A stretch of 64,000 bases of DNA, from the NCBI GenBank assembly GCA_024655905.1, contig JANLFP010000001.1, positions 332,336-396,335 on the forward strand. The letters are read 5' to 3'. The notes beneath the pieces are model-generated. The model saw only the letters and a program-made list of their open reading frames with translations. It searched no databases and was not told the DNA's origin. Below are positions 48,388-57,941 of this stretch, piece after piece. The DNA is from Tepidanaerobacteraceae bacterium (lineage in GTDB: Bacteria; Bacillota; Thermosediminibacteria; Thermosediminibacterales; Tepidanaerobacteraceae). Position 1 is the stretch's first letter. Every line of letters begins with the position of its first letter. The position numbers were made by a program, and so were the translations under genes.

Positions 48388-49518
48388 TCATACCAGCTTT
48401 TCTACAGGAGTATAATCCTCATCGTATCCGAAATACTTCGGCCCAAAGGTTTCGATGCCCAGGTCGGTGCGCATTTTTTCATCTGCCGGGACCACCACAA
48501 TGCTTCCGCGGTATCCGTATTTTACTATATCGGTCCTTATGGGTTCTCCTGTTTCCGAATCCAGTATCAAAATCAGGTCAGGAGCAAGGCATTTGACTTT
48601 TCCGCTTATTTCAAGCCTCAGCCATTCGTTCTGGAAATCCACGAAAGCTTTTTCCCCTCTATATTCTTCAAGGCCTTCAAGGGTCAACCTTCCCATAGAG
48701 AACCCTTTAGTCTTTTCTGCTCCGAATTCGCGATTTATGTCTACAATCTTGCCCTTGAAAACCTTATATCCTCCGACTATCTTCACTATGTTTTCAATGG
48801 GGTCGTCATGGGTTTTCCTGCATTTGTAGACCGCCTTGCCCAGTTCCCAGCTCTTTGAAATGGAATTAAAGATGGCCGCTTCTTTAAGCTGCCTGCCGGT
48901 CATAGGGTACCCCGCAATCCAGGATATTCCACCGTAGGCCATGGCGGCATTTCTTATTATTCTTTCCGCCATAATGGCGCTTGCGGCATCCGCTACGGTT
49001 ACCGCCCCTTTTTCATTGGCCGCCGCCGTGGGAGACGGCATAATGCCATGGGTGTAAAAGGATGTCATCTGAAGCTCCGGAAAAGCCCTCCCCATGCCGT
49101 CCGCATCCACCACCGGGATACCGACAGCCCCGGCAACCGCCATCGGAACAGGGGTATTCACCCCTCCTGCCTCGGGGGGTATAATGGCCTGGATTTCTTT
49201 TCCCAGATACCTTTTCAAACTTTCCAGGCACCACAGGACTTCCTTACCGTTCGGGGGTTTTTCTGTCAAAACAACCGGTGCTCCAAGGCAACCGGCTATG
49301 GCTGCCAGGGCGTCATCCGGAAAATCTCTTGGGTCTATCAACACGATATCCTTTCTCTCTTTGACCACATTTAGAGCCCATAAAAATCCTATCTCGGGGT
49401 CTCCCCCGCCGCCGGTGGCAAGGATGGACGCTCCCAGAGTAATTTCTTTCAGGCCCTGTTCATCCACAACCCTGTAATTTTTTATGCCCCATCTTTTTAT
49501 AATGTCATACACGCTCAT
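48388..49518 (-). CDS. DUF917 family protein (copy B)
   Basis: 376 residues; start at 49518 (MSVYDIIKRWG) because AGGTGAT stands 7 nt upstream. The signature GASILATGGGGDPEIG (about 29-44) and LGAPVVLTEKPPNG define DUF917, a family linked to hydantoin and S-methylthiohydantoin chemistry (established context only). The reaction is not known here. It closely matches the DUF917 protein at 50866 and ends the operon. Confidence 0.88.
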   Translation of the reverse strand: MSVYDIIKRWGIKNYRVVDEQGLKEITLGASILATGGGGDPEIGFLWALNVVKERKDIVLIDPRDFPDDALAAIAGCLGAPVVLTEKPPNGKEVLWCLESLKRYLGKEIQAIIPPEAGGVNTPVPMAVAGAVGIPVVDADGMGRAFPELQMTSFYTHGIMPSPTAAANEKGAVTVADAASAIMAERIIRNAAMAYGGISWIAGYPMTGRQLKEAAIFNSISKSWELGKAVYKCRKTHDDPIENIVKIVGGYKVFKGKIVDINREFGAEKTKGFSMGRLTLEGLEEYRGEKAFVDFQNEWLRLEISGKVKCLAPDLILILDSETGEPIRTDIVKYGYRGSIVVVPADEKMRTDLGIETFGPKYFGYDEDYTPVEKLV

Positions 49519-49527
49519 ATTCATCAC

Positions 49528-50613
49528 CTATATCAGCTCTCGAGGAGCATTTGTTAGCAGTTCATACCCACCATCCGTCACAAGCACCATATCTTCTATC
49601 CGGGCCGCTCCAAGGCCTTCCACATATATGCCGGGTTCAATGGTAAATATCATTCCCGGTTCCAGCAAAATCTTGCTTCCAACATCCACTATCGGCATTT
49701 CATGAATGCTAAGGCCCAGGCCATGACCTGTAAGGTGGGGAAAATATTTACCAAACCCTTTTTGCGCAATATAATCTCTGGCGGCTTTATCGATATCCTC
49801 CGCAGCCACCCCCGGCTTCACGGCCTCTATGGCTTTCTGCTGAGCTTCATAGGCCACCCGAAAAAGGTGTTTTTGCTCGTCGGAAAAGCCCCCGGGGGAA
49901 AACGTCCTTGTGATATCGGAGCAATAACCCCTGTAGACACACCCCATGTCGAAAAGAACAAGTTCGCCTTTTTTGAGTTCTTTATCCGAAGAAAACCGCT
50001 GCGGGAGCCACGCGTTCTCCCCAGACATGACAAAAGGCTCAAAGGACAATCCTTCCGCCCCTTCTTTCATCATCACGTCCTGGGCAATTGCGGATACTTC
50101 GTATTCCTTAATTCCCTCTCTTATGCTCTCAATGGCTTTAATCATGGCTTTTTCCGCGATTTTTGCAGCAGCTCTTATGATTTCGATTTCTTCCGCGTCT
50201 TTAACCGTTCTGAATCTTAAAAGATCGTTTTCTATATTGCACAGTTCGGCATTCGTTACCTCTTTTATTAAATTCTCCCTTTCAACTGTAACGGTTGAAA
50301 ACTCAACGCCAACGCGCTTTATATTTCTGCCATGAAGCAGTTGTTGCAGCGGGTTTAAATAATTCGGGTCGTCCTCCGGAAACTTTCTAATATCTTTTAT
50401 CCAGCAATTCCTTTTTACCCTGTTGTAGTCTAGAACCGCCGTCAAAAGCACCACTTCGCCATTTTTTGATATAAAAAGGATGGAAAAGGATGCGGTATTA
50501 AACCGCATGCCTGTAAAATACCTCACATTGGCTCTATCCCCCAGAATCGCAGCATCCAGATCCTTTTCCTGCAAAAACTCGACTAATTTATCCACTCGCC
50601 TTATATAATTCAT
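49528..50613 (-). CDS. M24 family Xaa-Pro peptidase
   Basis: 361 residues: creatinase-like N-terminal domain, then the pita-bread fold with metal ligands Asp and Asp in LFDMGCVYRGYCSDITRTF, His in THLTGHGLGLSIHE, and Glu in FTIEPGIYVEG and ARIEDMV. Cleaves Xaa-Pro bonds, or in relatives opens creatine or other small amides. Being inside the DUF917 operon it may act on a small N-acyl or dipeptide product of that pathway; this is inferred. ATG at 50613. Confidence 0.92.
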   Translation of the reverse strand: MNYIRRVDKLVEFLQEKDLDAAILGDRANVRYFTGMRFNTASFSILFISKNGEVVLLTAVLDYNRVKRNCWIKDIRKFPEDDPNYLNPLQQLLHGRNIKRVGVEFSTVTVERENLIKEVTNAELCNIENDLLRFRTVKDAEEIEIIRAAAKIAEKAMIKAIESIREGIKEYEVSAIAQDVMMKEGAEGLSFEPFVMSGENAWLPQRFSSDKELKKGELVLFDMGCVYRGYCSDITRTFSPGGFSDEQKHLFRVAYEAQQKAIEAVKPGVAAEDIDKAARDYIAQKGFGKYFPHLTGHGLGLSIHEMPIVDVGSKILLEPGMIFTIEPGIYVEGLGAARIEDMVLVTDGGYELLTNAPRELI

Positions 50614-50614
50614 C

Positions 50615-50866
50615 TTATATCCCTTCTAACTCGCTTTCTTTTTCGGGATTTATCATGTATATCTTCTTGGGCACCCTGGATTCCAGGCTTGATTCCATTG
50701 GACCGGTAAGTTCTATCAACACCATGTCATTTGCAAGTTTTTCCAGAGATTCTTCCAATTCCGGCATGCCCGAAAGTGCTTCGACAACGGCTTTTCTCTC
50801 GCTGTAGGGATTTTCTTTCAGGAACTTTATGATGGCTTTTTCCGTTTCATTAAAGCTGGATGCCAT
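50615..50866 (-). CDS. Small unknown protein in the DUF917 operon
   Basis: 83 residues, ATG at 50866 overlapping the last base of the DUF917 gene before it. Starts MASSFNETEKAIIKFLKEN and looks like a small winged-helix or coiled partner (alternating charged and Leu/Val positions), ending acidic. No family recognised. Position between the two DUF917 genes and directly before the peptidase suggests a specific role in that enzyme set. Confidence 0.65.
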   Translation of the reverse strand: MASSFNETEKAIIKFLKENPYSERKAVVEALSGMPELEESLEKLANDMVLIELTGPMESSLESRVPKKIYMINPEKESELEGI

Positions 50867-52038
50867 TATTTCGCCACCTCCTTATTGAGTTCTTCTACAG
50901 GAACATAATCCATGTCGTATCCAAAATATCCGGGACCAAACAGCTGTATTCCCTTGGGCGTCCTCATCCTTTCATGGGCTGGAATGAGGATGATGGAGCC
51001 TCTATAGCCGTATTTCATGATGTCGGTGCGAATCGGCTCTCCCGTTTCGGAGTCCACTATGGCTATGAGATCCGGCGGAAGGCACCTCACCCTCCCGTCA
51101 ATCCTCAAGACGAGCCATTCATTTTGAAAGTCGATTTCCGCCACGCTTCCCTTATATTCGTCAAGCCCCTCCATTTTTATTCTGCCAAGGCTGAAGCCTT
51201 TTGTCGACTCTCCGCCGAACTCCCTGGAAATGTCCACTATCTTGCCCTTGAACACCTTCATCCCGGTCACGTTTCTCGTAGCCTTCAGGCTGTCGAGCAT
51301 TTCCTTCACGGGGTCCAGGTGCTTTTCTCTCGCCCTGTAAACGGCTTTGCCCAGTTCCCACGCAATGCTCTGGGAATTTAAAATAGAAGCTTCCTTGACC
51401 TGTTTTCCCGTCATGGGGTATGTCGCAATCCAGGAAATGCCGCCGTAGGCCATGGCGACACGCCTTGCGATATTTTCGGCCATTTTGTTGTCATCGCCGG
51501 TATCGATCACAGTTACATTGCCCCTGTCGTCGCAGGAAACCGTAGGGGAGGCATTTACTCCGTTTGTAACCCATGAAGTCATCTGGAGCTCTGGAAACGC
51601 CCTGTTCATGCCGTCTACGTCGATCACGGGGACCTCAAATTCTCCCGCAGCCGCATAAGCGACGGTGGAATTCACTCCTCCGCATTCAATCGGAATCGTC
51701 GCCCCGAGTTTCTTTCCCCAGTACTGTTCCAGTTTTCTTATGGCATTATTCAACACATCATATGAAGGCGGCTTTTCGGTAAGCACCACGGGCGCGCCCA
51801 GGCAGGCGGGGCTCGCAACGAGAATATCGTCGGGTATGTCCATTGGATCAATCATAACCACGGTCTTTCCTTCATCCAGCACTTTATACGCCCATAGAAG
51901 CCCTATCTCGGGGTCTCCTCCGCCGCCCGTAGCAAGGATTGACGCTCCAAGAGTGATTTCTTTTACTGCCTGCTTGTCTATGATTTTATAGTTTTTAATT
52001 CCCCATTTTTCCAGTGTCTCGAAGACTTTGTTCGACAT
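50866..52038 (-). CDS. DUF917 family protein (copy A)
   Basis: 390 residues with the DUF917 signature GASILATGGGGDPEIG and the following DDILVASPACLGAPVVLTEKP. By eye more than half its residues match copy B, so the pair arose by duplication or joint gain. Sits 15 bp behind hyuA. With HyuA present but no HyuB, these proteins may replace or partner a hydantoinase subunit; inference. Confidence 0.88.
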   Translation of the reverse strand: MSNKVFETLEKWGIKNYKIIDKQAVKEITLGASILATGGGGDPEIGLLWAYKVLDEGKTVVMIDPMDIPDDILVASPACLGAPVVLTEKPPSYDVLNNAIRKLEQYWGKKLGATIPIECGGVNSTVAYAAAGEFEVPVIDVDGMNRAFPELQMTSWVTNGVNASPTVSCDDRGNVTVIDTGDDNKMAENIARRVAMAYGGISWIATYPMTGKQVKEASILNSQSIAWELGKAVYRAREKHLDPVKEMLDSLKATRNVTGMKVFKGKIVDISREFGGESTKGFSLGRIKMEGLDEYKGSVAEIDFQNEWLVLRIDGRVRCLPPDLIAIVDSETGEPIRTDIMKYGYRGSIILIPAHERMRTPKGIQLFGPGYFGYDMDYVPVEELNKEVAK

Positions 52039-52053
52039 ATGCTTTCCGCCTCC

Positions 52054-53649
52054 TTATTCGAATATTTTCCCTTTTACTCTGATTCGTATCTTTTCGCGTT
52101 TTCCGGGCATGTAGGCAAAAGGAATCTCTTCCACATCCAGCACTTCTACGGTATCGCGAATCGCTCCAGCTTTTTCCGCTTCGTCTTTTGCCTTTTCGAT
52201 TACTTTATTTATAGCGGCGTCCCTGTCCTCAATCTCCAAATCAGCCACGCCTTCGGCATATGCTCCGATTTCGGCAATGGTTGTGCCTATAGCGCCGCAA
52301 ACCTCAAAGTGAGGCGGCATTACCACTTCGGATATGCCTTCAAGGTTCTCCCTGGGCACCACAAGCGCACCGCCGCCCACAAAAATGGCCTTGACGTTGC
52401 CGGCCACCGTCTTCATCTGGTCTACGGCTACTTCCAGCGTATTCTTTATCATTTTATACGCCGCTTCTACAAGGTCTTTGTCTAAAGCTTTAACCTTATC
52501 GATGTGAGGCGCAAAGTCCGTGTCAAAGATATCGAGCTTTTTATCAAGGATTCCCCTGGCCACTGCGATATCATGGGTGGTAATTATCGGACCGCCGAAA
52601 GACTTGCCCAATCTGACCAGGTTATATCCGACGCTCTCGGGGCCATGGGCTATAACCTCGTTGCCCTTGGTTTTCACTATTGTTCCGCCGCCAAGAGCTA
52701 TGGACATAAGGTCTGGGCATCTGATGTTTGTCTTTACTCCTCCGATAGTTACCGTTATTGAAGATTCTCTCGGGAATCCGTTTACTATATACGCGACATC
52801 CGTCGAAGTCCCGCCTATGTCTACCACAACACCATTATCAATACCGGAAAGATAAACCGCACCTCTGACACTGGCCGCAGGTCCCGACGCCACTGTGAAA
52901 ATCGGGTAATTCACCGCATAATCCGCCGACATGACCGTCCCGTCATTCTGAACTATGAAAAGAGGAGCCTCGATGCCGCGTTCCTTTGCGGCTTTTTTAA
53001 GGGCTTCCACAGCCCTTCTCATCACCGTTATGACCGATGCGTTCAAAATGGTGGAGTTTTCCCTCTCCAGGAGAGATATGGAAGCAATATGGTTTGAAAG
53101 GGTAATCGGTATGTCTCCCAGTTCTTCTCTTATTATTTCCGCTGTTCTTTCTTCCTGGTCCGGTATCATCGGCGAAAAGACGCCGGTTATGGCTATGGAG
53201 TCAACTTTCCCCTTGATTTTCGCACATGCGCTCCTGATCGCTTCTTCATCGAGGGGAACCACATCTCTTCCATCGTATTCTTTTCCGCCACGCACTATGA
53301 ATATATTTTCCGCTCCACCGATGGCCGCTTTCAAATCCTCCGGCCATCCTGTAAGAGGGGGGATAGCAGTCGTCGCCGGTGCTCCCAGCCTGAAAATGCC
53401 GACTTTATTCAGATTTTTCCTTTCGATAATCGCATTGGTGGTATGGGTTGTTCCCAGCGATACCAGGCTTATTTCTGATACTTCGGCTTTTTTGGTTCTC
53501 AGCAAAACATCCAGAGCATTTATGATTCCCGTGGTAACATCATCGGTAGTGAGTGCTTTTGCCTTTGCCAGAACCTCTTTGCCCCTGAGCATTACGCCGT
53601 CGGTAAAAGTCCCGCCCACATCGAATCCGATTCTTACATCTTTTGCCAT
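52054..53649 (-). CDS. hyuA: Hydantoinase/oxoprolinase family protein (HyuA)
   Basis: 531 residues with the actin-like ATPase signatures DVGGTFTDGVML (near the start) and VDIGGTSTDVAYIVNGFP (about 263-280). HyuA proteins hydrolyse ATP to open hydantoins, 5-oxoproline or related cyclic amides, usually with HyuB. No hyuB is present. The family's longer C-terminal part is absent, as in the shorter HyuA class. Second gene after the racemase (13-bp gap). Confidence 0.9.
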   Translation of the reverse strand: MAKDVRIGFDVGGTFTDGVMLRGKEVLAKAKALTTDDVTTGIINALDVLLRTKKAEVSEISLVSLGTTHTTNAIIERKNLNKVGIFRLGAPATTAIPPLTGWPEDLKAAIGGAENIFIVRGGKEYDGRDVVPLDEEAIRSACAKIKGKVDSIAITGVFSPMIPDQEERTAEIIREELGDIPITLSNHIASISLLERENSTILNASVITVMRRAVEALKKAAKERGIEAPLFIVQNDGTVMSADYAVNYPIFTVASGPAASVRGAVYLSGIDNGVVVDIGGTSTDVAYIVNGFPRESSITVTIGGVKTNIRCPDLMSIALGGGTIVKTKGNEVIAHGPESVGYNLVRLGKSFGGPIITTHDIAVARGILDKKLDIFDTDFAPHIDKVKALDKDLVEAAYKMIKNTLEVAVDQMKTVAGNVKAIFVGGGALVVPRENLEGISEVVMPPHFEVCGAIGTTIAEIGAYAEGVADLEIEDRDAAINKVIEKAKDEAEKAGAIRDTVEVLDVEEIPFAYMPGKREKIRIRVKGKIFE

Positions 53650-53662
53650 ATGTTCTTCCTCC

Positions 53663-54436
53663 TCACTTGTGCCATAGTCCTTTAATATCGTATTGCTTTT
53701 CCAGTTCCCACTCTTCTATTTCAAAAAGAGGCGGCGTTTCGAAGCCGTATTTCTTGCTGTGAAGCCATCCGAATCTGTCTTTCAGTTCCACAAGAAATTC
53801 CGCATATTTTAAGGGCCCGATAATGGCGTCAACCACCGGAACATTTACGTATTCCTGAAGCTCTTTATAGAATCCAAACTGTATCGTGCATCCCAGTATT
53901 ATGGCTTCTGCCCCGTCCTTTTCCACCGCTTCCTTTGCCGCATCTTTAAGCTTTTGTATTGTGACTTTCTCATCGGCATGAAAATCGTAAACTCCAAGAC
54001 CCAGGGATTTGAATGACGCCAGTTTGTCTTTAAAGCCGTTTAATACCACATTGTCCATCATCTGCGGAATCCATTTGTCCCTTCCAACAATGACAGAAAA
54101 TTTGTGCCCCAGAGTCGCCGCAATATGCATGCAAGCTTCGGCCGGAGCCGTGACAACCATTTTTTCCACTATTTCTCTTGCGTCGTGAAGCCCCGGATCA
54201 TAAAAACAGCCGATTACGGATGCATCATAGCCATCCTTTTCGGCCTGTTTTATTAAATGCAGCGTTTCGGGGATTACAAGCGCTTCATAATACCTGTACT
54301 CAAGGTGTTTGGGTCCCCTCTTTAAAGAAACCACATCCACCTGTGTTTGAGGCTGTTTGATTTCATCAAGCGCGTCTTTAATAGGCTTATCGAAGATATC
54401 AGTGCCGACCGGATTAATCCACAAAATTTTAGACAT
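53663..54436 (-). CDS. Asp/Glu/hydantoin racemase family protein
   Basis: 257 residues from ATG 54436 (GGAGG about 10 nt upstream; an earlier in-frame start is less well supported). The two expected catalytic cysteines are in SVIGCFYDPGLHDARE (first) and IILGCTIQFGF (second), as in hydantoin racemase. Would equilibrate hydantoin enantiomers or a related acid before ring opening. First gene of the DUF917 operon. Confidence 0.85.
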   Translation of the reverse strand: MSKILWINPVGTDIFDKPIKDALDEIKQPQTQVDVVSLKRGPKHLEYRYYEALVIPETLHLIKQAEKDGYDASVIGCFYDPGLHDAREIVEKMVVTAPAEACMHIAATLGHKFSVIVGRDKWIPQMMDNVVLNGFKDKLASFKSLGLGVYDFHADEKVTIQKLKDAAKEAVEKDGAEAIILGCTIQFGFYKELQEYVNVPVVDAIIGPLKYAEFLVELKDRFGWLHSKKYGFETPPLFEIEEWELEKQYDIKGLWHK

Positions 54437-54560
54437 AATGCAAATACCTCCTTCCAAGAAATTTAATAGTTTTATTATAATTTTTTCAACGCGCTAAAAG
54501 CCATATCCTTGGGCAACAAAAAAATAAGGATTTTTTGTCGCAAGAGGATAACAAGAATAA

Positions 54561-54605
54561 CAGGCTGCCCGCGGCACAAACACAATCATGCGCGATGGCA
54601 GCCTG
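54561..54605 (-). terminator. Hairpin behind pucR
   Basis: CAGGCTGCC (54561-54569) and GGCAGCCTG (54597-54605) form a perfect 9-bp stem with a long loop, 60 bp after the pucR stop. Either strand is trailed by a short T-rich stretch. It would separate pucR from the racemase operon. Confidence 0.45.
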
Positions 54606-54664
54606 GCCTTTTGATAATTGTACTGATGGGATTTTTTCAATTGCTTCTGATTATAAAAACCATA

Positions 54665-56365
54665 TCAGGAAAGCATCTTCAACGCTTTTATGAGAATATG
54701 ATAATAAAGCCTTTTTTGTTCATCCTGGAGTATATCCTCACCGGTCAGTTCCCTGATTTTTTTTAGACGGTACTTTATCGTATTGGGATGGGTGTAGAGC
54801 TTTTTCGCAGTATCCTTTATGCTGCCGTTGCTGTCCAGAAAAACCTCCAGCGTTTCGATAAGATTGCTGTTTTTATTTAAGTCGTGCTCATATAGCCTGG
54901 AAAACCATCTATCCCTCAATATTTCCTCTTTTTTGTCCGGAATTGATATCAATTTATATATCCCGAGGTCATCATAAAAACTAATTTTCCCTCTGCCGAA
55001 CAGCTTATTCCCTATATCCTTTGCAAATATGGCTTCCCTATAAACTCTTTTTAATTCTTCAATATTTTCCATTGCGGAACTTACGCCCATCGACAATGAA
55101 ACATCGGGATTCCTCGCGGAAAATTCATTTGTCACTTTATAAAACAAATCATTCAATGTTTTTTTGTATAGCATTTCTCTCATATATTCAATTCTGGTAA
55201 ACCCTACGAGAAGTATGCCGGCGTCGCTTTTTGGGACAAATAGCAGAACCCTGCTCTTCATGTCTTTGCATGCTTCTTCAATGGCCTTTTTCAAGTCCCT
55301 TTTTATCTTTTGAATATGTTCTTCGCCTTTTTCATAATTGTCTCTGCAGTATTTTTCAAAATCGTCAATGTCAAAAATGACGACAAAATTTTTATCCAGG
55401 AGGTTCAAACCAAGGGTCCGGGCTCTTTTCTTCATAAGCTCATTCGATGTGTATGCATCATTTATTATGTCTTCAAAAAAGTCCGACTTAAGCCTTTGCT
55501 CCGTCTCCAGGATGGCCAGGTTCTTTAATGTGTCAATCTTTAAAGCTGTTATCGTGCTGGGAAATGCAATTTTATATAATTTATTATCAAATTCAGTCAT
55601 TTCGCCCTGTTTTATGACTATCAAATAGCAATCCGTGTCATCATTGATGTTTACGATCGAAATAGCCAAATTAAAGTCATTTTCCCAGGAGACTACGTGA
55701 GTCTGATCGGGTTTGCTTTTGCTTCTTCTTGAAACATTTGTCTCAATATGGCATTTTGCAAAGTCGCATATTTTTATCAAATTCTCTTCGATTAAACCGC
55801 CGCTTTTCCCTCTTAAAACCATATCAACAGGTTTAAAACTCTCGTCGAGAAAAAGCACGCTTTTATTTATAATCGAAGATAATTTGTCTATTATCTCGTG
55901 CACCCCTCCATTTGTCAACAATATGTTATTCATCAAATTGTTAATTTCCTGAGCTTTTTTGAGGGCCAGCTCCTCCCTGTTCAGCAAAGCTTCATATGTT
56001 TTTTTCATGATTAGGGAATAGGGCAATTTTCTGTCTATTAAAAATAAGGGAAAGTTAATTTCATCTGAAAGCTTTATTAAGCAATCCGGCACCTGAGCGA
56101 AAGTGTCATTCCCCGGATGTATAAAAATACATGCAGCTTCACCCCTGCTCAAACCTTTTATAAGATTGAGCCTTTCCTCAACGGTCTTGTACGGATATAG
56201 GGTTGTCAATACCATTTCTCCGCCCTGAAGCCATTCAAAACAATCGGGAATTTCTATAACGCTTACCGATTTTATAACCCTTGATTCCCCATTTCTTCCG
56301 CCAGCCCAATAAATGCCATCATCTTTTAAAATTTCATAAGCCTCTTTTACAGTTATGCCTTCCAT
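54665..56365 (-). CDS. pucR: PucR family transcriptional regulator
   Basis: 566 residues from ATG 56365 (GGAGGAG 7 nt upstream). N-terminal PucR ligand-binding region (residues 1-125), a middle degenerate GGDEF-like domain, and a C-terminal HTH_30 (SNGSIKDTAKKLYTHPNTIKYRLKKI). PucR types control purine, hydantoin and similar degradation, usually as activators. Divergent from the permease and upstream of the DUF917 operon, so it should govern both. Confidence 0.9.
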   Translation of the reverse strand: MEGITVKEAYEILKDDGIYWAGGRNGESRVIKSVSVIEIPDCFEWLQGGEMVLTTLYPYKTVEERLNLIKGLSRGEAACIFIHPGNDTFAQVPDCLIKLSDEINFPLFLIDRKLPYSLIMKKTYEALLNREELALKKAQEINNLMNNILLTNGGVHEIIDKLSSIINKSVLFLDESFKPVDMVLRGKSGGLIEENLIKICDFAKCHIETNVSRRSKSKPDQTHVVSWENDFNLAISIVNINDDTDCYLIVIKQGEMTEFDNKLYKIAFPSTITALKIDTLKNLAILETEQRLKSDFFEDIINDAYTSNELMKKRARTLGLNLLDKNFVVIFDIDDFEKYCRDNYEKGEEHIQKIKRDLKKAIEEACKDMKSRVLLFVPKSDAGILLVGFTRIEYMREMLYKKTLNDLFYKVTNEFSARNPDVSLSMGVSSAMENIEELKRVYREAIFAKDIGNKLFGRGKISFYDDLGIYKLISIPDKKEEILRDRWFSRLYEHDLNKNSNLIETLEVFLDSNGSIKDTAKKLYTHPNTIKYRLKKIRELTGEDILQDEQKRLYYHILIKALKMLS

Positions 56366-56477
56366 CAGAACTCCTCCATTGCCCGGCTTTGTCTTTTTAA
56401 AATAAAAATCCTGCATAAATTTGTTGGATGCCGCCAAGCCCTTTTCTGTCTCGCGAGCAGGAAAAGGGACGGTTTTA

Positions 56478-56505
56478 TTTAATATATTACACTTAATATA
56501 TTAAA
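56478..56505. promoter_or_regulatory. Perfect AT-rich palindrome, candidate PucR operator
   Basis: TTTAATATATTA-CACT-TAATATATTAAA, a perfect 12-bp inverted repeat, in the region between pucR (start 56365) and the permease (start 56643). Size and place suit a dimeric regulator of both genes. Confidence 0.55.
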
Positions 56506-56642
56506 TCAACCTTTTTACATTTTCATCGGTTTTATAAAAATTTTTAAAATATCAAATTATTTGGAGGTGATATGCACAATACAGCAAATCACGCACATGG
56601 TTTTTCTAATTCAGCTATTTATTTTGAAAGGAGTACAGTAGT

Positions 56643-57941
56643 ATGGAAAACAGCAAAAATCAAGTTAATTTTGAGGAGGAGTATTCTCAAAAGCCCATAC
56701 CGCAATCGATGCGCAAACACTGGTTTTATGCAGCCAGCGTATACATTGGAATGTGCGCGGTTCTTGCATGTAGCATGGCAGGCGGAGGCTTGATTTACGG
56801 CCTTACATTGCCGCAGGCCATTGTAGCCATGTTTTTAGGCCTTGTTGCCCTGGTCGCATTGTTTTACATCCCCCTCGGCAAAATCGGAGCTGAACAGGGT
56901 TTAAACACTTACCTCATAGGAGAATGCGCTTTTGGAAAAAGAGGAAGCGATATAGCAGCATCCTTTATTGTCACTGTCATACCTTGCATAGCCTGGTACG
57001 GCATTGAGGTTTCAATAGCCACTCAGGCAATGGCGGCTGTAATTCCCATGAGCAAAATGGCTTTCAATATCGTAACGCTATTGTTCGGCATCATATTTGC
57101 GATTCCCGCAATGTACGGCATTTTGTCCATGGCATGGCTGAACTGGATAAGTCTTCCCATTATGATTTACATTATTATATTTGGCGTCGGCAAAGCAATA
57201 ATGGGAACGGGAGCGGGCAGCTTGTGGACATACAGCCCGCAGCAAAATATGGGACTGATGTGGGGCATTAACATGCAGATCGGCATGATTGCTGTTGGAT
57301 GCTCTTTCGTCGCAGATTATACGAGATGGATAAAAAACAAGTGGAGCGATATAACGTATTCTGGCATTGTGGGTCTTTTTCCGGCTACTTCAGTCCTTAC
57401 AATCGCAGGTATGATTATGGCCCTTTCGGCAACAAAACTCGGTGTAAAGGAACCATGGAACATTGTAGAGGTCATGATGAAACTTGGCATGCCGGCTATG
57501 GCCCTCGTATTTGTCTTTTTGCTTCAGTGGACCACATGCATCACATCTGCATACAGCTAGGGCCTGGCGCTGAAAAAGGCATTTGGAGGCAGCAGGTTCT
57601 ATCTTACGCTTTTTTCCGCTCTCATAGGCACCGCATTTGCCATATCGGGCATTGTAAGCCATTTCCTCGGCTTTGTATCCATACTCGCTTCCTGGGTAAC
57701 ACCTGTTGCCGGAGTGATAATCGCCGAATACTTTTTTGTTTCCAGGAAAAGATTCGTTCGAAGGGAAGGCATATACTGGCCGGGTTTGATTTCCGCATTA
57801 ATCGGCGGGTTCATATCGTGGAAAGTCAAATTTTTCATACCGGCTATAAATGGACTTATCATAGGCGGACTGTTATACTATATCTATCATAGAGCTTTGG
57901 GTCTGTTTGTTCCGACTGAACCTGTTGTTGAAGTGAAATAA
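56643..57941 (+). pseudogene. NCS1 cytosine/hydantoin-type permease interrupted by a TAG
   Basis: Coding for about 432 residues if read through; 12 membrane spans with NCS1-type signatures (SMRKHWFYAASVYIG, EQGLNTYLIGECAFG, IPCIAWYGIEVSI). A TAG at 57558-57560 ends the protein at TTCITSAYS after 305 residues; the downstream frame (GLALKKAFGG...) continues with permease-like sequence for about 126 codons to a proper stop. AAAGGAG before the ATG. Would import a nucleobase, hydantoin or allantoin-like ring, matching its PucR/HyuA neighbours. May be a decay, a sequencing error, or a suppressed codon. Confidence 0.85.

Follow-up and report, generated by a model that had tools for sequence, protein, structure and literature searches.

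Gene content of the locus

This study concerns a six-gene operon of a Tepidanaerobacteraceae bacterium (assembly GCA_024655905.1), found in a 64,000-nucleotide stretch of contig JANLFP010000001.1 that is referred to below, at its full length, as the window. The operon combines a short HyuA protein with two members of the DUF917 family. Its genes lie on the minus strand within positions 48388-54457, head to tail and with gaps of no more than 15 bp (Table 1), and are transcribed in the order racemase, HyuA, DUF917-A, 83-residue protein, M24 peptidase and DUF917-B. Racemase and HyuA are separated by 13 bp and HyuA and DUF917-A by 15 bp; DUF917-A overlaps the gene of the 83-residue protein by 1 nt, followed by spacings of 1 bp (83-residue protein/M24) and 0 bp (M24/DUF917-B). 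For the racemase, a start at the ATG at 54436 was preferred over the TTG at 54457. A PucR regulator gene is located upstream on the same strand, ~0.2 kb from the operon. No gene for HyuB (PF02538) is present at the locus, and the sole copy in the genome resides on another contig (C31), beside a full-length HyuA. An earlier interpretation made from the letters alone (the sequence-only reading) had described both the near-contact of the six genes and the missing HyuB; the coordinates of open reading frames (ORFs), the Pfam matches and the position of the single HyuB gene bear this out.

Table 1. Position and family assignment of the operon genes and of the adjoining regulator and permease genes.
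Product	Position in the window	Strand	Family matches and remarks
Asp/Glu/hydantoin racemase family protein	53663..54436	-	PF01177, 116 bits; first gene of the operon
Short HyuA, 531 aa	52054..53649	-	PF05378, 139 bits; PF01968, 121 bits
DUF917-A, 390 aa	50866..52038	-	PF06032, 166 bits; PF20906, 218 bits; candidate hydrolytic partner of HyuA
Conserved protein, 83 aa	50615..50866	-	No Pfam or NCBIfam match
M24 metallopeptidase, prolidase/YpdF-like	49528..50613	-	PF00557, 250 bits; PF01321, 76 bits
DUF917-B, 379 aa	48388..49527	-	PF06032, 176 bits; PF20906, 209 bits
PucR-type regulator	54665..56437	-	PF07905, PF17853, PF13556 (HTH_30)
NCS1-type (cytosine-permease-like) permease	56643..57941	+	Frame interrupted by in-frame TAG at 57558-57560; divergent from the operon

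Short HyuA proteins and their pairing with DUF917

The HyuA of the window carries both phosphate motifs, DVGGTFTD (phosphate-1) and DIGGTSTD (phosphate-2), which are kept in 51 aligned short HyuA sequences. Its best NCBIfam model is the caprolactamase alpha subunit, and its predicted fold matches caprolactamase CapA (6yra_A; Z 26.9, root-mean-square deviation (rmsd) 4.3 over 506 residues). The C-terminal domain PF19278, detected at 40 bits in the genome's own long HyuA, is missing from this protein and from its counterpart in locus L075. The adenosine motif GxxPGP is absent from the window HyuA; at the site that reads GPxSAGxxPGPACYG in HyuB-linked HyuA, short HyuA proteins carry GPxSVGY...FGG. 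In a maximum-likelihood tree of 70 HyuA, in which some long-branch rows are unreliable, the HyuB-linked proteins form one 100/100 group beyond a branch of length 5.2. HyuA proteins paired with DUF917 are thus a distinct short subfamily.

To survey this pairing, DUF917, HyuA (PF01968) and HyuB (PF02538) were sought in 249 genomes of Bacillota and placed by coordinates, with a HyuA counted as adjacent when it lay within 2.5 kb of a DUF917 gene on the same strand; since related genomes are not independent, the counts are not to be taken as p-values. DUF917 occurs in 46 of the genomes (79 genes), and 29 HyuA genes from 26 genomes adjoin it, against ~0.16 expected by chance, so that the placement of DUF917 relative to hyuA is non-random. 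Every DUF917-adjacent HyuA is short, with lengths of 517-585 aa apart from a 283-aa fragment where a contig ends, and those adjoining HyuB only measure 686-758 aa, except for fragments and one HyuA-HyuB fusion of 1228 aa. The sequence-only reading had asked whether hyuB is absent whenever hyuA stands beside DUF917. This holds for 18 of the 26 genomes but not for the other eight, where HyuB pairs with another, longer HyuA; DUF917-linked HyuA proteins therefore do not rely on a HyuB encoded elsewhere. Random placement of DUF917 and a constant HyuB elsewhere, the two outcomes that the sequence-only reading had named as speaking against it, were thus both checked and neither was observed. Three short HyuA genes adjoin both DUF917 and HyuB; for the two of them that are of the window's operon type (G148 and G195), the adjoining HyuB goes with a long HyuA located farther upstream.

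A corresponding survey of archaea found DUF917 in 31 of 151 genomes, with 11 HyuA linked to DUF917 (516-538 aa), 18 linked to HyuB (650-723 aa, with exceptions of 474 aa and 825 aa) and none linked to both. The pair is kept in either gene order; its recurrence in another domain of life and in both orders argues against hitch-hiking. As a gene association, the replacement of HyuB by DUF917, one of the roles put forward in the sequence-only reading, is well supported by these surveys. It is retained beside differing transporters and is plasmid-borne in Alphaproteobacteria and Lactobacillales. The common form is a cassette of NCS1 permease, a single DUF917 and HyuA, and the system is accordingly broader than the operon of the window.

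Several further observations were made in these surveys. DUF917 genes are present on 129 plasmids (Sodalis, Arsenophonus, Lactiplantibacillus, Rhizobium and Parageobacillus, insect symbionts included), with HyuA adjoining in four of four records examined; on a Mesorhizobium plasmid, HyuA-DUF917 stands right behind an ABC (ATP-binding cassette) transporter with two permeases and two ATPases. Loci L072-L077 (also L078 and L080) bear a second cassette divergent from NCS1-DUF917-HyuA. Its products are a regulator (in L075 a sigma-54 activator), a remote DUF917 protein and a protein of ~426-475 aa that has no assigned family and, in L078 and L080, bears a weak BLAST resemblance to HyuA. A third class of HyuA (~555-618 aa), which adjoins no HyuB and no DUF917, was seen in more than 20 of the DUF917-bearing genomes, among them the source genome (C36:149000-166000, L031), and five HyuA of 654-679 aa likewise have no detectable HyuB or DUF917 beside them (G093:C2, two in G116:C1, G078:C1 and G025:C1).

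DUF917 corresponds to the present Pfam domains S-Me-THD_N (PF06032) and S-Me-THD_C (PF20906), both of which were found in DUF917-A and DUF917-B at 166-218 bits. The AlphaFold2 (AF2) model of DUF917-A is of good quality (predicted local distance difference test (pLDDT) 89.5, predicted template modelling score (pTM) 0.89), and its sole clear fold match in the PDB is 2O3I, an uncharacterised DUF917 protein (Z 38.6, rmsd 2.5 over 341 residues); neither sequence nor Foldseek searches returned a HyuB-like match to DUF917. With 2O3I as its only fold relative there, DUF917 is a non-homologous candidate for the HyuB role. The two proteins of the operon form a single 100/100 group in the tree, which makes them paralogues that arose through duplication inside the lineage. 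The possibility that DUF917-B is a degenerate copy was ruled out, as the family-wide invariant residues E88, E118, D140, D142, R146 and E307 (DUF917-A numbering) are kept in both. Two more DUF917 genes without HyuA are encoded elsewhere in the source genome (C11:122000-140000, L032), followed by a 345-aa protein without assigned family and an oligopeptide-type ABC transporter (SBP_bac_5, oligo_HPY).

Accessory genes, transporters and neighbourhood

The closest loci were found in metagenome-assembled genomes of Thermoanaerobacterales and Tepidanaerobacteraceae and in Thermovorax, and the six operon genes are all intact here, with proteins 91-98% identical to those of close relatives. The block HyuA-DUF917A-83 aa-M24-DUF917B, mostly led by the racemase, is kept in Tepidanaerobacteraceae and their relatives, Bacillus, Siminovitchia, Desulfosporosinus and Acetomicrobium, and conservation of the order across these groups shows that the arrangement is not due to chance. 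A full-length HyuA-HyuB pair adjoins the block in Bacillus, Thermovorax and Acetomicrobium, so that the two enzyme types can operate next to each other in a single neighbourhood. In a close relative (G001, L097 15661-17139), a 492-aa protein, of FMN-dependent glutamate-synthase type by the look of its sequence, is inserted between racemase and PucR.

The nearest PDB relatives of the racemase are hydantoin racemase 3qvj, epimerase OpaE 9qbx and allantoin racemase 5lfd, and its catalytic cysteine pair (C77 and C183) is invariant in nine relatives. The M24 protein is nearest to prolidase and YpdF-type models with scores below their cut-offs, the top one being Xaa-Pro dipeptidase PepQ (273 bits, cut-off 630). 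Its five metal ligands D222, D233, H297, E326 and E340 are invariant in 11 sequences, and the role of a finishing peptidase that the sequence-only reading had assigned to it is plausible. Pfam and NCBIfam searches with the 83-aa protein gave no match; it is conserved in 12 relatives, has a near-invariant ESRVPKK(I/V)...NPE motif that is shared by distant Firmicutes and by Acetomicrobium, and is possibly a small winged-helix protein.

Some of the surrounding genes recur. A proline racemase, recognised by sequence, adjoins the operon in two loci (L009 and L015) and appears at the margin of a third (L021); an M19 dipeptidase is found in the Bacillus loci, and a class I/II aminotransferase adjoins the HyuA-DUF917 pair in L069 and L081. 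In the source genome, the other DUF917 genes and the HyuAB genes are located near oligopeptide-type ABC transporters (SBP_bac_5), and the full-length HyuA-HyuB pair (C31:74000-92000, L033) is additionally accompanied by a divergent PucR-type regulator.

The divergent permease gene is of NCS1 type, as had been proposed, but its in-frame TAG had been overlooked. By NCBIfam it is a cytosine-permease-like relative (114 bits to PRK11017 on the 305-aa fragment, cut-off 326; 74 bits to TIGR00800, cut-off 353); the intact relative in L010 is likewise under both cut-offs (171 and 85 bits, respectively), and no Pfam match was obtained for the window's permease, even with the TAG read through. Relatives in L010, L012 and L023 have a Ser codon at this position. 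A close relative (L008/L098) has a separate TAG at codon 168 (L098), where the others have Trp, and the enzyme operon is intact both in this relative and in the window. Unless the two TAGs are assembly errors, these sequences suggest that the permease was lost at least twice in the group and the operon preserved. Reading of the TAG as a recoded codon was ruled out, since it falls at a Trp position in one organism and at a Ser position in the other. The proposed import through this permease is weakened because the gene is broken here and, independently, in the close relative, and because other loci use transporters of the major facilitator superfamily or of the ABC type.

Proposed reaction, its alternatives and meaning

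To our knowledge, every characterised HyuA-type enzyme requires a second subunit to turn over its activated substrate, and a HyuA without HyuB therefore needs another hydrolytic site. In caprolactamase CapAB, the A subunit carries out phosphorylation (or carboxyphosphate activation) and the B subunit hydrolyses the ring with the aid of metal, the two sites being connected by a tunnel (PMC8453981). We see about an even chance that the product of the operon is a cyclic-amide hydrolase driven by ATP, with DUF917 rather than HyuB as the partner of the short HyuA. More tentatively, short HyuA and DUF917 may constitute an undescribed class of two-component ATP-dependent cyclic-amide hydrolases across bacteria and archaea, with an unrelated fold replacing HyuB, the version with M24 and two DUF917 proteins serving in diketopiperazine degradation.

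Complex formation between HyuA and DUF917, the chemistry and the substrate are what we infer here. HyuA would phosphorylate the ring amide as its iminol tautomer, or activate it via carboxyphosphate, in the manner of CapA and 5-oxoprolinase; DUF917 would then receive the activated imidate, add water at the C=N carbon and release the opened ring. The racemase would preset or correct the stereocentre, and the M24 peptidase would cleave the linear product. Cyclic amides opened in this way would probably serve the cell as nutrients. Thiohydantoin and S-methyl thiohydantoin desulfurases, the characterised relatives of DUF917, likewise hydrolyse a carbon of a hydantoin-like ring: they swap sulfur at the C=N/C=S carbon of the ring for oxygen from water, and the attack of water on the carbon of an O-phospho-imidate may be chemically close to this reaction.

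A number of observations weigh against this proposal. Both DUF917 proteins reach 72-87 bits with the NCBIfam models of thiohydantoin desulfurases (NF058529 and NF058532), for which the cut-offs are 440-450. No fused HyuA-DUF917 ORF was found in the 249 Bacillota and 151 archaeal genomes, where the largest DUF917 ORF measured 471 aa; fusions of this kind may exist in fungi. HyuA and DUF917-A share a reading frame in the window, which made a single-chain AF2 model feasible (the TAA between them was read as Gly; 69 aligned rows, plasmid-record rows left out); in this linked chain the domains were modelled well but no confident interface was obtained (pTM 0.57, linker pLDDT below 50), a result that does not in itself argue against a complex. 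Of the 79 DUF917 genes in Bacillota, 49 have no HyuA next to them, from which it follows that the family is not tied to HyuA and that some members work without it; the dependence runs one way, from short HyuA to DUF917 and not the reverse. Finally, a CN_hydrolase takes the place of M24 beside the pair in L028, which would suit hydantoins equally.

The linear product in the M24-bearing version is most likely a dipeptide, and the substrate is therefore probably a 2,5-diketopiperazine, perhaps a proline-containing one. Hydantoins or related ureido rings are rather unlikely to take the place of cyclic dipeptides, with M24 then contributing a side activity or processing an N-carbamoyl product. NCS1 permeases and PucR regulators are typical of the use of hydantoins, pyrimidines and purines, and the presence of both at the locus, together with the hydantoin and allantoin racemases as relatives of the racemase and with the CN_hydrolase, whose family includes carbamoylases, points in this direction. 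However, no gene of the carbamoylase type turned up in the window operon, M24 enzymes are peptidases, and proline racemase and M19 dipeptidase recur beside the M24-bearing version. These genes, the intact M24 ligands, the aminotransferase and the oligopeptide-type transporters favour diketopiperazines, as do cyclodipeptide-oxidase neighbourhoods, in which DUF917 and hydantoin racemases are enriched (PMC11055893).

It is unlikely that HyuA and DUF917 form no joint enzyme and instead act one after the other, each at its own step of one pathway, DUF917 hydrolysing the ring or a substituent without ATP and HyuA acting on that product or on a precursor. Such a division of labour would agree with the stand-alone nature of thiohydantoin and S-methyl thiohydantoin desulfurases, the NCBIfam relatives of DUF917, as judged by their names, and with both the many DUF917 genes lacking an adjoining HyuA and the linked-chain model. 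Against it, HyuA-type enzymes of the CapAB kind use the second subunit for the activated substrate (PMC8453981), and the DUF917-paired HyuA form a subfamily of their own that in 18 of 26 genomes has no HyuB available, so that something else must perform the second step.

An ATP-dependent carboxylase or another ligase-like enzyme, comparable with the acetone and acetophenone carboxylases of the HyuA superfamily, is highly improbable. The HyuA of the window matches subunits of these carboxylases nearly as well as caprolactamase, but the caprolactamase alpha model scores best, and the racemase, peptidase, amino-acid racemases, dipeptidase and aminotransferase (L069, L081) nearby point to the catabolism of amides and amino acids. 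The least probable view, that the locus is decaying in the source organism and has no present function, would account for the two independent TAGs in the permease gene, but six intact genes with such high identity in close relatives and the preserved ATP motifs, racemase cysteines and M24 ligands contradict it.

Seen as an ATP-dependent cyclic-amide hydrolase, HyuA-DUF917 is a variant of the lactamase/hydantoinase type. It resembles HyuAB, CapAB and OplAB in the ASKHA fold of HyuA with both phosphate motifs, the match to CapA and the cyclic-amide context with racemase and regulator, but differs in that the locus has no HyuB, its HyuA lacks PF19278 and PGPACYG, and the partner is DUF917. With the thiohydantoin and S-methyl thiohydantoin desulfurases, DUF917 shares the two-domain family (PF06032 and PF20906), aligned over most of the length, and a hydantoin-like ring chemistry; unlike them, the proteins of the window are a tandem-duplicated pair encoded with HyuA and score far under the cut-offs. 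The NCS1-DUF917-HyuA cassette of Bacillota (C. difficile CDR20291_1615-1617, L. rhamnosus, plasmids) has a HyuA of the same subfamily and a DUF917 partner, but a single DUF917 upstream of HyuA and neither M24 nor the 83-aa protein. It is already annotated in public genomes and listed in tables of expression or gene content (C. difficile, L. rhamnosus); the C. difficile permease, DUF917 and hydantoinase genes appear together and with similar changes in an hcpR expression table (PMC12915319). The clusters associated with cyclodipeptide oxidases (PMC11055893) are alike in their DUF917 and hydantoin racemase content, whereas the genes of the window operon include no recognisable cyclodipeptide oxidase. 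Within the open-licence literature, we found no paper treating HyuA-DUF917 as an enzyme, naming thiohydantoin desulfurase or reporting a functional study of DUF917.

Beyond thiohydantoin desulfuration, hardly any function has been tested in the widespread DUF917 family, and numerous HyuA genes go by the name hydantoinase or oxoprolinase even though they lack the partner that such enzymes require. Both gaps would be explained if HyuA and DUF917 form a single enzyme, which would also be a case of a catalytic subunit replaced by a non-homologous one. Many 'hydantoinase/oxoprolinase' annotations would then be corrected, and a testable route for the breakdown of cyclic dipeptides or hydantoins would be at hand in anaerobes, in gut bacteria such as C. 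difficile and on plasmids.

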